Below are positions 22,267 to 57,720 of a DNA stretch of 64,000 bases, one piece after another (positions within the stretch are counted from its first letter, which is position 1; the number at the start of each line of letters is the position of its first letter). The notes below the pieces were generated by a model, which saw only the letters and a program-made list of their open reading frames with translations, was not told the origin of the DNA and did not search any database. The translations under genes and the position numbers were made by a program. Origin of the DNA: Rhodocyclales bacterium (lineage in GTDB: Bacteria; Pseudomonadota; Gammaproteobacteria; Burkholderiales; Rhodocyclaceae); assembly GCA_016192435.1 (NCBI GenBank), contig JACPUD010000057.1, positions 20,072-84,071 on the forward strand, read 5' to 3'.

Positions 22267-22282
22267 AGTGCGCTGGCGTACA
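22267..22282 (-). promoter_or_regulatory. Palindromic activator site, BON gene promoter
   Basis: AGTGCG-CTGG-CGTACA on the plus strand. Read on the minus strand, TATTCT begins 22 bases after the palindrome (22240-22245), so the palindrome is centred at -41.5 of the predicted start near 22233. It points to the BON gene at 22110. Confidence 0.8.
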
Positions 22283-22378
22283 TAGCGCAAGACAAGCGGA
22301 TGCGCCGGCCAACGCAAGTGCAATAATTGCGGCTGCATCGGACATGGGAATCGCGGCCTGCGGCGCGATCGCCGTCGC

Positions 22379-22393
22379 GCCAGCGCCAACTCT
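22379..22393 (+). repeat. Dispersed repeat, copy 1
   Basis: GCCAGCGCCAACTCT, exact consensus. A GCCAG/CTGGC stem closes around the conserved core. It is intergenic. Confidence 0.7.
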
Positions 22394-22434
22394 CTGGCCG
22401 GCCTGGCGCAGCAGGCGCGCGGCGGGAAGGCGGA

Positions 22435-22767
22435 TCAGCGACGGCTGAGTAGGACGAAGACGATGAGCGCGGCCACCGCGGGAATGCCAAATGCCTTCCA
22501 TGGATTCTCCCTGACGTATTCCTGGGTGGCGTCGGCAGCGTCCGAGGCCTTTCTTGCGACCGCAATTCGCGCCGCATCGAGTCTCGATCTCGCATCCCGC
22601 AACTGGCCCTCGATCCGGGTCCGCGTCGCAGCGAATTCCTCCGCGGTCGAACTTACCACCTGCTGCAACAGGTCGTCGGTATCGGCGACAATGTCCTTGA
22701 GATCCCTGACGAGCCTGTCCTTCTTGATCTCGATGGCGCCGCGCTGTTCGAATAATGCCATATTCAT
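22435..22767 (-). CDS. DUF883/ElaB-like membrane-anchored protein
   Basis: A 110-residue protein of the ElaB/YqjD/DUF883 family: a long amphipathic helix (KKDRLVRDLKDIVADTDDLL, then an alanine-rich helix), the family ENPWKAFGIPAVAAL motif and one C-terminal membrane segment ending in LLSRR. E. coli relatives are stationary-phase proteins that bind ribosomes at the membrane. ATG 22767 is preferred because GGGAG lies five bases upstream; ATG 22761 is also possible. The site at 22864 lies upstream. Confidence 0.87.
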   Translation of the reverse strand: MNMALFEQRGAIEIKKDRLVRDLKDIVADTDDLLQQVVSSTAEEFAATRTRIEGQLRDARSRLDAARIAVARKASDAADATQEYVRENPWKAFGIPAVAALIVFVLLSRR

Positions 22768-22863
22768 GATCTCTCCCGATGTTGACGGGTAGCAGCGGCG
22801 ACCGGAGATTCGGGCGCCAACGCTCCCCTGACGCATAGCCTGATCCCTGCCTGTGCGCCGGTC

Positions 22864-54759: not shown

Positions 54760-55416
54760 ATGAGTGATGAAGGCGCGCAGCCGGCGACGGTGATCCTGGT
54801 GCATGGCTTGTGGACCCCGGCCGCGGTGTTCCTGCCGCATGGCCGCTGGCTGCAAGGCCACGGCTACCGCACGCTGCGCTTCGGCTACCCGAGCGTGCGC
54901 GCCACGCTCTCGCAGAACGCACAGGCCCTGCGCCGCTGCATCGCCGCGACCGGCGCGAGCGAGATCCATCTGGTCGGCCACAGCCTCGGCGGCCTCGTCA
55001 TCCTCGACCTGCTGAGGCAGGACGCCGATCCGCGCCTGCGCCGGGTGGTCCTGCTCGGCACGCCCTGCCTCGACAGCCACTGCGCGCGGCGGCTGGCCGC
55101 CCTGCGCGGCATGCCCGCCCTGCTCGGACGCTCGATCGGCGAATGGCTGGCACGCGGACCCGCTGCCGCGGTGGCGCCCTGGCCTGCGGTGGGGGTGCTG
55201 GCCGGCACCCGCAGCCTCGGCCTGGGCCGCGTCGTGCCCGGCCTGCCGCGCCCCAACGACGGCGTGGTGAGCGTGGCGGAGACGCGCCTGCCCGGCGCCG
55301 CGGACTTCATCGCGCTGCCCGTGGCGCACTCGGAAATGCTGGTCTCGCGGCGCTGCGCCGGACAGATCGCGGCCTTCCTCGACACCGGGCATTTTCGTCA
55401 CCATGAACCGGTTTAG
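54760..55416 (+). CDS. Alpha/beta hydrolase (lipase-like)
   Basis: A 218-residue serine hydrolase. The oxyanion segment is VILVHGLWTPAAVF near residue 8, and the nucleophile elbow is GHSLGG near 70. The C-terminal PNDGVVSVAETRLPGA and VAHSEM regions provide candidate aspartate and histidine. It resembles small esterases and lipases; the substrate is unknown. It starts 12 bases after acnA, and its end overlaps the next gene by 14 bases, so it is probably co-transcribed with both. Confidence 0.85.
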   Translation: MSDEGAQPATVILVHGLWTPAAVFLPHGRWLQGHGYRTLRFGYPSVRATLSQNAQALRRCIAATGASEIHLVGHSLGGLVILDLLRQDADPRLRRVVLLGTPCLDSHCARRLAALRGMPALLGRSIGEWLARGPAAAVAPWPAVGVLAGTRSLGLGRVVPGLPRPNDGVVSVAETRLPGAADFIALPVAHSEMLVSRRCAGQIAAFLDTGHFRHHEPV

Positions 55417-56527
55417 GAATTCGCTGCTGCCACTGCTGCTGGCGCTGGCCATGGCGCTGACCGGCTGCGGCAACATCGCCTACTACGCCCAGGCGGTGGG
55501 CGGCCATTTCGAGCTGATGCGTGCGGCGCAGCCGATCAGCGAGCTGGTCGCCAGGCCCGCCGGCGATCCGCAACTCGGCAGGCAACTGGCGGAGGTGGCG
55601 GCGATACGCGACTTCGCCAGCCGCGAGCTGGGCCTGCCCGACAACAACAGCTATCGCAGCTACGCCGACCTCGGCCGCCCCTACGTGGTGTGGAACGTCT
55701 TCGCCGCGCCCGAGCTGTCGCTGGCAGCCAAGCAATGGTGCGTGCTGCTGGTCGGCTGCGTGAACTACCGCGGCTACTACGGGCAAAAGGATGCCGAGCG
55801 CCTCGCCGCGGAACTGCGTGCGGAGGGTTACGACACCTTCGTCGGCGGCGTTGCGGCCTATTCGACGCTCGGCTACTTCGACGATCCGGTGCTCAACACC
55901 TTCATGCGCCGCGGCACGCTGGAAGTCGCGCGCATCGTGTTTCACGAGCTGGCGCACCAACTGGTCTACGTCAAGGACGACACCGCCTTCAACGAATCCT
56001 TCGCCACGGTGGTCGAAGACGAAGGTATGCGGCGCTGGACCGCGGCCCAGGCCACGCCCGCGCAAAGCGCCGCCTTCGCGGCGCAGCGGCTGCGCCGTGC
56101 GGATTTCACCCGACTGCTGCAGGATTACCGCGAGCGGGCGCGCGAGCTGTATGCAAGCGGGGGCGCCGCGGAAGCTCAGCGCCGCGCCAAGGGCGAACTG
56201 TTCGCCGCCCTGCGCCGCGATTACGCGGCGATGAAGGCCGGCTGGGGCGGCCATGCCGGCTACGACAGGATCATCGGCGCGGATTTCAACAACGCCGGGC
56301 TGGTCGCCTTCGGGCTCTACAGCGAACTGGTGCCGGCCTTCGCGGCCCTGCTCGCCGCGGAGCAGCACGACCTGCCGCGCTTCTACCGGCGTGTGGGCGC
56401 CCTCGCGGCGCTGGCCAAGGATGCCCGGCGCTGCGCGCTGGCCGGGCTGCTGCCGCCCGCCGCTGCCGGCGCCGCGGCGCGCGACTGCCCGGCCATCCCT
56501 GGCCAGCCCGGCGCCGACCGATGGTAG
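55403..56527 (+). CDS. Putative zinc aminopeptidase lipoprotein
   Basis: A 374-residue protein with a lipobox (LAMALTGCGNIAYY, cysteine 22) and a zincin motif HELAHQ near residue 192, with a following FNESFATVVEDEG segment that supplies the third ligand. It matches the predicted aminopeptidase family PF10023, which resembles M61/M1-type enzymes. It would act on the periplasmic side of a membrane. The start overlaps the hydrolase gene upstream. Confidence 0.87.
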   Translation: MNRFRNSLLPLLLALAMALTGCGNIAYYAQAVGGHFELMRAAQPISELVARPAGDPQLGRQLAEVAAIRDFASRELGLPDNNSYRSYADLGRPYVVWNVFAAPELSLAAKQWCVLLVGCVNYRGYYGQKDAERLAAELRAEGYDTFVGGVAAYSTLGYFDDPVLNTFMRRGTLEVARIVFHELAHQLVYVKDDTAFNESFATVVEDEGMRRWTAAQATPAQSAAFAAQRLRRADFTRLLQDYRERARELYASGGAAEAQRRAKGELFAALRRDYAAMKAGWGGHAGYDRIIGADFNNAGLVAFGLYSELVPAFAALLAAEQHDLPRFYRRVGALAALAKDARRCALAGLLPPAAAGAAARDCPAIPGQPGADRW

Positions 56528-56560
56528 GCTGACGGCATCCCTTTCCGGCGAGCGACGACC

Positions 56561-57685
56561 ATGAGCAAATACATCGGCATTCTTACCGCGGGCGGCGACA
56601 GCCCGGGCCTCAACGCGGCGATCCGCGGCGTCGGCAAGGCGCTGCTGGGGCATTACGGCATGCACGTCGTCGGATTTCGCGACGGCTTTCGCGGCCTCAT
56701 GGAAAACCGCACGGCGACGCTCGACGGCGGCCAGCTCTCGGGCATCCTGACCGTCGGCGGCACCATCCTCGGCACCAGCCGCGACAAGCCGCACAAGATG
56801 CCGGTGGCCGGCAAGATCGTGAACATGCTCGACACCATCGCCGACAACTACCGCGCCAACCGCCTCGACTGCCTGGTCTGCCTGGGCGGCGGCGGCACCG
56901 TGAAGAATGCCCTGCGCCTCAAGCAACTGGGCCTGAACGTCATCACGCTGCCGAAAACCATCGACAACGACGTCGCCGGCACCGACGTCACCTTCGGCTT
57001 CGATACCGCGCTGGGCATCGCCACCGAGGCCATCGACCGCCTGCACAGCACGGCGCACAGCCACCATCGCATCATCGTGGTCGAGATCATGGGCCACCGC
57101 GCCGGCTGGCTGGCGCTGGGCGCCGGCATCGCCGGTGGCGCCGACGTGATCCTGATTCCCGAAATTCCCTACGACGTCGACAGCGTGGCCCAGGCCATCC
57201 GCGCCCGCGCGCGTGGCGGCAAGCCCTTCTCCATCGTCGCCGTGGCCGAAGGTGCGATCTCGCGCCAGGATCTGGCCGCGATCGCCGCCGCCCGCTCCGC
57301 GGGCAGGAAAGCGGCGAAGCAGAAGGACGCGCGCAAGGCCGACGATACGCAGGCCGATGCCGCGGAACTGCTCTATGCCGATCGCACGCTGCGCCTGGCC
57401 AAGCGCCTGGAAGCCCTGACCGGCCTCGAAGCCCGCGTCACCATTCTCGGCCACGTGCAGCGCGGCGGCGCTCCCTCGGCCGCCGACCGCCTGCTGGCGA
57501 CCCGCCTCGGCACGGCCTGCGCCGACCTGATCGCCAAGGGCACTTACGGCGTCATGGTGGCGGCCAAGGGCGAGGACACCCAGCCGGTCAGGCTCGAAGA
57601 CGTCGCCGGCAAGGTCAAGACCGTGCCGCTCAAGCACCCGTGGATCGGCAGTGCGCGCCGGGTCGGCACCAACTTCGGCGACTGA
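56561..57685 (+). CDS. pfkA: 6-phosphofructokinase
   Basis: A 374-residue glycolytic enzyme that phosphorylates fructose 6-phosphate. It has GILTAGGDSPGLNAAIRG at the start, GGGGT near residue 111, PKTIDND at the catalytic aspartate and MGHRAGW later. The phosphoryl-donor positions are mixed: glycine at the residue equivalent to E. coli G104 (ATP type) but lysine in PKTIDND (common in PPi enzymes), and the preceding GGDG aspartate is glycine. The donor, ATP or PPi, cannot be settled from sequence. It has an inserted charged loop (AAKQKDARKADDTQ). Confidence 0.92.
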   Translation: MSKYIGILTAGGDSPGLNAAIRGVGKALLGHYGMHVVGFRDGFRGLMENRTATLDGGQLSGILTVGGTILGTSRDKPHKMPVAGKIVNMLDTIADNYRANRLDCLVCLGGGGTVKNALRLKQLGLNVITLPKTIDNDVAGTDVTFGFDTALGIATEAIDRLHSTAHSHHRIIVVEIMGHRAGWLALGAGIAGGADVILIPEIPYDVDSVAQAIRARARGGKPFSIVAVAEGAISRQDLAAIAAARSAGRKAAKQKDARKADDTQADAAELLYADRTLRLAKRLEALTGLEARVTILGHVQRGGAPSAADRLLATRLGTACADLIAKGTYGVMVAAKGEDTQPVRLEDVAGKVKTVPLKHPWIGSARRVGTNFGD

Positions 57686-57704
57686 GCGACCAACATCGGT
57701 CGTG

Positions 57705-57720
57705 TGTCTGCTGGCGCACA
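57705..57720 (+). promoter_or_regulatory. Palindromic activator site, CAP-domain gene
   Basis: TGTCTG-CTGG-CGCACA, with outer GGTC/GACC. TAAGCT begins 21 bases after it (57741-57746), one base closer than in other copies, predicting a start near 57753. Confidence 0.65.

Follow-up and report, generated by a model that had tools for sequence, protein, structure and literature searches.

A palindrome with fixed class II promoter geometry and its predicted Crp/Fnr-type regulator in a Rhodocyclales bacterium

In a stretch of 64,000 nucleotides from a Rhodocyclales bacterium (C41:20072-84071, here called the window; own genome 3.52 Mb, 83% complete), palindromes of the type TGTRCG-N4-CGCACA recur between genes for envelope- and stress-type proteins. 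Within the same cluster, a run of three genes on the minus strand encodes a CHASE3-PAS hybrid histidine kinase (45743-48901; the first gene of the run), a response regulator with receiver and PAS domains (44892-45746) and, overlapping the latter gene, a Crp/Fnr-family regulator of 247 amino acids (44165-44908), which is the predicted cognate activator of the palindromes. This regulator is the sole Crp/Fnr-fold protein encoded in the cluster and has a cNMP-binding-type beta roll and a Crp-type helix-turn-helix. A sequence-only reading of the window had listed 15 palindromes and quoted 13 hexamers downstream of them, and every one of these is present exactly where it had been placed. The finding is real and goes further than that reading supposed: it would comprise a subfamily of Crp/Fnr proteins, an operator that this subfamily is predicted to bind and promoters of one fixed class II design. 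That reading had proposed no regulator; the most likely one comes from a Crp/Fnr subfamily of its own, with its gene in the cluster.

The palindromes are not well separated from chance when matching is loose. At two or fewer mismatches the window holds 19 matches against 12.0 +/- 3.4 in shuffled sequences, with 19 being reached in 4 of 100 shuffles, and because this count lies near chance it was dropped as evidence. Five matches are exact and ten have at most one mismatch, and all ten are intergenic, with intergenic sequence making up 13% of the window by our own gene calls. TGTRCG ranks first among the 180 permutations of its own half-site (permutation means 0.12 for exact matches and 0.88 at one mismatch or fewer), and the runner-up permutations, with 2 exact matches and 7 at one mismatch or fewer, include its one-swap neighbours. 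The own genome has six exact sites, five of them inside the window, and none for a reversed-pattern control; recognisable sites are concentrated in the window stretch. A two-mismatch scan of the own genome with promoter geometry (27+27 against 11+20 in the control) was used for leads only. The near-chance count at two mismatches and the site at 32407, a possible hairpin between convergent gene ends, would fit palindromes that arose by chance in a GC-rich genome, or RNA hairpins, but we give this explanation a negligible probability: it is contradicted by the exact-site, intergenic, geometry and cross-genome tests, and the sites lie upstream of predicted starts.

The sequence-only reading had placed the centre of the palindrome at -41.5, the class II position, and independent sequences support this. 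From 40 further loci (38 from relatives and two from the own genome), 59 intergenic sites with at most one mismatch could be oriented by a neighbouring gene, and over offsets 5-69 the -10 score rises to a peak only once, at the 22nd base (offset 21; z 6.3). Independently of the score matrix, A at position 2 together with T at position 6 of the hexamer (A2+T6) is found at offset 21 in 47 of the 59 sites and at the best other offset in 12. The same holds in 80 named loci that were chosen by the regulator protein alone. Here, without gene calls and in both orientations, A2+T6 occurs in 32 of 66 reads of the 33 exact sites (mean at other offsets 3.1, z 20), in 66 of 166 reads of the 83 one-mismatch sites (7.2) and in 74 of 458 reads of the two-mismatch sites (21.6). 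In the window, 12 of the 15 sites have A2+T6 exactly 22 bases downstream in one orientation, while 22937, 32407 and 57705 do not; with a newly added site at 23531, 13 of 16 sites examined pass.

A consensus was built from 200 class II sites, nine of them in the window, that were selected by the pattern at one mismatch or fewer and in which the A and T of TANNNT were fixed by the selection. It reads T(76%)-N-TGTGCG-N4-CGCACA-G(81%)A(92%)C(48%), followed by the TANNNT hexamer. With 17 bp between the -35 position and the -10, its GAC falls at -33 to -31 and matches the GAC of TTGACA, so that part of a -35 element directly adjoins the operator. Since only the GAc of the -35 hexamer is conserved, activator dependence is to be expected, and T-N-TGTGCG-N4-CGCACA-GA joined to a partial -35 is the arrangement that class II activation would be expected to have. 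The same geometry bears on whether the regulator might instead act as a repressor on the same operator, blocking the -35 region from -41.5 until released by a signal. The palindrome does overlap the -35 position as such a repressor would need, but promoters that conserve only GAc look weak unaided, and a single fixed spacing is expected for activation and unnecessary for repression; we regard repression as improbable.

Across genomes, the sites are associated with the regulator. We counted sites with at most one mismatch and a -10 in 250 genomes of the order, leaving the own genome out of the means. Genomes whose regulator match reaches E<=1e-85 (52) average 10.0 sites, those with a weaker match (to 1e-60; 21) 6.1 and those without (176) 2.17 (U test, p 1e-20); the reversed control averages 3.40, 2.90 and 2.32 in the same three groups. 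Within families (match at E<=1e-60), counts are higher with the regulator in 26 of 27 informative families, and the observed sum was not attained in any of 20,000 shuffles within families. Among 61 genomes, exact sites average 3.7 in the 18, own genome included, that have a match at E<=1e-80 and 0.60 in the 43 others, four of which have weaker matches; in the same genus the means are 5.6 in nine genomes with such a match (own included) and 0.5 in 22 others (three with weaker matches). The nine same-genus genomes have 6, 1, 7, 1, 10, 8, 7, 9 and 1 exact sites, and the size of the regulon varies among genomes. The protein itself occurs in at least 27 families of the order.

When loci are instead approached through the protein, the 80 loci contain 33 exact sites; with up to one mismatch the count is 116, and 26 of these lie no more than 420 bp upstream of the regulator match. 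The 180 half-site permutations give means of 0.95, 16.8 and 0.76, respectively, and upstream of the regulator the permutations next in rank (17 and 15 sites) include some that differ from the motif by a single swap. A site precedes the regulator gene itself in 46 of 129 homologue matches, and the cultured species Massilia rubra and Thiocystis violacea have one before their regulator genes; in the window, the site precedes the kinase gene and not the regulator gene. Because the palindromes go with one regulator family across the order, this regulator likely binds them and would switch the genes on as a set. We consider it highly probable that the palindromes are the operators of the Crp/Fnr-type regulator encoded at 44165-44908, which would activate the gene set from -41.5.

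Alternatively, the palindromes may be the sites of a different regulator that is inherited along with the Crp/Fnr gene, e.g. a LysR-type factor, because TGTGC-N6-GCACA is also compatible with the LysR T-N11-A box. In Pseudomonas putida, the hpdH region is presumably LysR-controlled. The hpdH upstream region contains GCCCCTGTGC-n6-GCACAGCGGC (PMC5431877), and we count this in favor of a LysR-type factor. However, the sites gather upstream of the Crp/Fnr gene and track it in 26 of 27 families, and the adjacent receiver-PAS protein has no DNA-binding domain by Pfam. Moreover, one constant centre at -41.5 is what Crp/Fnr class II promoters typically show, in contrast to LysR-type regulators. A co-inherited second regulator is therefore quite improbable in our view.

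The recognition helix of the Crp/Fnr-type regulator is RREGV (LGVRREGVTEAAG). In an alignment with GlxR, its Arg183 and Glu184 fall at CRP positions 180 and 181, and in 46 aligned homologue rows Arg182 is kept in 46, Glu184 in 43 and Gly185 in 40. For Crp/Fnr proteins, R180 has been linked with the motif's G3 and E181 with its A6 (PMC1274295). The sites described here have the predicted G3 but a C at position 6, and another residue must therefore matter for specificity. The Arg before and the mostly Gly after the conserved Arg-Glu (RREG) likely give TGTGCG instead of TGTGA, and the regulator is predicted to recognise TATGTGCGCTAGCGCACAGA and the motif TNTGTGCG-N4-CGCACANA. The closest solved structures by sequence are distant (E ~1e-4), and NCBIfam gave only sub-threshold matches to the regulator. 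At least 7,999 database proteins match the regulator profile at E 1e-60 or better, and the names among the 120 matches listed are only generic Crp/Fnr or CRP-like labels.

At class II promoters, E. coli CRP binds TGTGA-N6-TCACA. The system described here resembles it in the Crp fold, a 16-bp-type palindrome, the centre at -41.5 and the equivalents of Arg180 and Glu181. It differs in the operator TGTGCG-N4-CGCACA, in which C (95%) and G (97%) replace CRP's A and N in the 200 selected sites, and in the Arg at 179 and Gly at 182 of the aligned helix. The GELS of GlxR aligns to G-VSL of the regulator, its Glu being without a counterpart, and of 46 rows 32 have Arg at position 94, where the window protein has Ser; cAMP binding by the regulator is doubtful. 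The outer TGT is the same as that of CRP and would be compatible with the palindromes being variant sites of E. coli-type CRP or of FNR/DNR/NnrR regulators. So would the inner GCG-N4-CGC, which is identical to that of the operator ctTTGcgnnnncgCAAag given for the Crp/Fnr-family protein NnrR of Alphaproteobacteria (PMC1274295). By contrast, the outer half is TGT and not TTT, with G at the second position in 99% of the 200 selected sites as against TTTGCG-N4-CGCAAA; the predicted targets appear to differ from the published denitrification genes, and NnrR was described in another class. No denitrification family is among the best 25 of 59 Pfam families listed per target set. The operator also differs from the FNR/DNR operator TTGATnnnnATCAA of the same family (PMC1274295), and the window regulator lacks an N-terminal FNR-type cysteine cluster (Cys only at 142, 153, 198, 219, 221 and 238; any Cys in the first 35 residues in 6 of 46 rows). 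Within families, the site count follows the subfamily of the window regulator, with other Crp/Fnr groups not mapped per genome, and use of the palindromes by any of these known regulators is very unlikely. The sequence-only reading knew of no described regulon with this site, and none was recognised in limited literature searches, in which some queries likely missed "Crp/Fnr" and which had RegPrecise and most subscription journals outside their scope.

Several observations weigh against the palindromes being operators of this regulator, or against parts of that proposal. Exact matches are rare and mostly in the window, but at one mismatch the own genome has 17 sites and the reversed control 26, so that one-mismatch sites outside the window are at noise level. 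Across the order, the reversed control also differs slightly between the groups (p 0.002), and in family f13 site counts are lower with the regulator. In the 80 loci, the permutation TGRTCG, with 32 exact matches and 142 at one mismatch or fewer, equals or exceeds the motif, only 2 being upstream of the regulator. By the criterion used, 83 of the 129 regulator-type matches have no upstream site. Among the 176 genomes without a called regulator, six have at least eight sites; a looser search of these six found a match with 41% identity plus fragments in G181 and a partial match at a contig end in G046, but no regulator in G052, G075, G162 and G281, with the reversed control being as high as the site count in G052 and G281. 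Conversely, G068 and G150 have a strong regulator match but only two sites each, and G014, an assembly that is 87% complete, has one-mismatch sites before four targets and no regulator was found in it. The residue-to-base assignments are inferred, and G022 has sites, yet its sole regulator match (55% identity) has the helix RRESV; as these sites go with RRES, the Gly is not essential and Arg182 is the better candidate.

In the model that we suggest, the regulator would bind as a dimer centred at -41.5. It would activate the kinase operon to which it belongs, with autoregulation via the operator at 49157 before the kinase-receiver-regulator run, as well as a predicted small RNA and a set of genes of envelope and stress type. 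Input might come from the linked CHASE3/PAS kinase and receiver-PAS protein, or via Cys142, His146 and Cys219-x-Cys221. Of 101 loci, 67 have a kinase match no more than 2.5 kb from the regulator and 55 a receiver match, counts given here without a background rate. All 46 aligned homologue rows have Cys142, His146 and, in the C-terminal Cys-x-Cys-Tyr, Cys219, Cys221 and Tyr222, an invariance that suggests a metal or thiol site or switch. The "envelope stress" role is a guess from gene content. We can only tentatively speculate that this is an order-wide stress circuit run by a subfamily of Crp/Fnr proteins whose RRE helix reads a particular operator code (TGTGCG). The circuit would probably sense through a thiol or metal and/or the CHASE3/PAS kinase and would extend to envelope genes and also, within this genus, to a small RNA of anti-Shine-Dalgarno type, as a sigma-factor-free counterpart of RpoS/RpoE-type responses. 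An operator and promoter geometry for a generically labelled Crp/Fnr group make targets predictable in the genomes that have the group, and one circuit that joins kinases, envelope proteins and a predicted small RNA is testable in cultured strains. The regulator is also a natural test of the R180/E181 rule (PMC1274295), since Glu181 is kept, yet A6 is replaced by C.

Most of the downstream genes named in the sequence-only reading keep the site with a proper -10 before their orthologues in relatives. Sites read toward the minus strand include 22267-22282 (-10 TATTCT, 22240-22245) before a BON gene (21796-22110; site at 16 of 25 orthologue matches, 15 of them class II), 22864-22879 (CAGGCT, 22837-22842) before a DUF883 gene (22435-22767; 6/9), 28136-28151 (TATGTT, 28109-28114) before an RcnB-like gene (27519-28061; 9/10, one match being a paralogue in the own genome) and 38724-38739 (GATGAT, 38697-38702) before an OmpA-domain gene (37835-38521; 10/10). 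The site at 29646-29661 (-; CAGAGT, 29619-29624) precedes the PA2779-PA2778 pair (29557-28185), with a site at 7 of 12 PA2779 matches and at 0 of 11 for PA2778, the second gene of the pair. Two sites stand back to back: 40591-40606 (-; GAAGAT, 40564-40569) precedes a CsbD gene (40262-40474; 10/13) and a glycine-zipper gene (39167-40252; 6/8), and 40639-40654 (+; TACGAT, 40676-40681) an open reading frame (ORF) of unknown family that ends at 41757 (2/2). Upstream of the kinase-receiver-regulator run lies 49157-49172 (-; TGTGCGGCAGCGCACA; CACCAT, 49130-49135), which is kept in G027 and found at 3 of 25 kinase orthologues. Three further sites have two mismatches: 23687-23702 (+; TAGCCT, 23724-23729) before another CsbD gene (23797-23973; 5/8, giving 15/21 for the two CsbD genes), 33415-33430 (+; TAGCCT, 33452-33457) before an ORF at 33464-33937 (3/3), and 50256-50271 (-; CATTGT, 50229-50234) before an M48 peptidase gene (2/2). 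The contig VEPA01000077.1 occurs twice in the data, once as L050 (G011) and once as L079, and the orthologue counts for BON, RcnB, CsbD1 and DUF5670 include both.

In the window as in G027 and G015, the predicted +1 coincides exactly with the ATG of the ORF at 33464, which would make the mRNA leaderless; the automatic gene caller gave only one leaderless start, though three are directly visible for this ORF. The M48 ORF (49286-50272, -) starts at 50272, upstream of the predicted transcription start, and its true start codon must therefore lie further in.

The claim for the lpd-like gene did not hold in its simple form, as none of three orthologue matches has a site. In G027 and G015, the equivalent of the promoter at 31477-31492 (-; TAGATT, 31450-31455) leads into an intact peroxiredoxin-glutaredoxin gene and then directly into the lpd-like gene, and the lack of sites before lpd is explained by its being the second gene. 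In the window, only the ends of the peroxiredoxin-glutaredoxin gene (31205-31363, -) are left, at 31205-31270 and 31307-31363, so that its middle has been lost, and the lpd-like gene (29783-31198) would be read behind this remnant. Peroxide defence thus likely joins the target list. On the other side of the same site, MlaC has a class II site at none of 4 orthologue matches, and there is none before orthologues of SDR (0/12), MipA (0/7), CheB (0/7) or YihY (0/3).

Three of the original palindromes have no class II -10 and are unsupported as operators. The site at 22937-22952 (+; three mismatches) is followed by GATAAG, and the BON lipoprotein gene that had been named as its target has a class II site at 1 of 6 orthologues; 57705-57720 (+) has two mismatches. 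The third, 32407-32422 (+), lies between convergent gene ends, and its flanks extend the complementarity, so it could be a terminator hairpin and not an operator.

Outside the window, 191 class II sites were available; a gene within 320 bp was used for 138 and 47 had none. Directly behind such sites in the named loci (n=63) are 12 Crp-type regulators, 9 kinases, 5 BON and 4 CsbD genes, and in other loci (n=73) 8 BON, 7 OmpA, 7 PA2779, 6 RcnB and 5 CsbD genes. In the own genome, C91:53905 (L206) precedes an RcnB paralogue (-10 CATACT), and C101:12641 (L055), also a class II site, is an exact match. OmpA was considered as a case of a gene kept with its site lost, but it makes no clean test: most genomes of the genus that lack the regulator have only the other OmpA paralogue, at 60-66% identity.

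One site has no protein gene of its own. The newly added operator at 23531-23546 (+; GGTGCGACAAGGCACA; two mismatches; -10 CATTCT, 23568-23573) would serve a predicted small RNA (sRNA) at 23580-23658 (+), a transcript of ~78 nt that would begin 49 bases from the start of the site and that has CUCCUCC and AACCCC tracts and a Rho-independent terminator. The site (with one or two mismatches), the -10, both tracts and the terminator are kept in G015, G027 and G022, i.e. in three of 60 relatives, all regulator-bearing, and the terminator stem shows paired changes. The sRNA appears to belong to the regulon, and its CUCCUCC tract suggests that it may act as an anti-Shine-Dalgarno RNA. It is like the RF02278 Betaproteobacteria toxic small RNAs in being short and in having a CUCCUCC tract and a terminator. 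It was nonetheless rejected as a member, because it scores 28.9 bits against a gathering score of 50, with one of four homologous loci matched. We also rejected the class II site as the promoter of the known RF02278 RNAs, since 26 of the 30 loci checked were in register and had no such site (the four shorter loci were out of register).

Rfam gave two sub-threshold matches only between 20000 and 58000, and PADLOC gave no match for four unknown ORFs. At 34448-34707 (-) there is a sub-threshold sX6 match (24.9 bits, gathering score 40), and beside the regulator gene lies a CheB methylesterase fragment (43564-44034, -) that covers only the first 75 of 174 profile positions.

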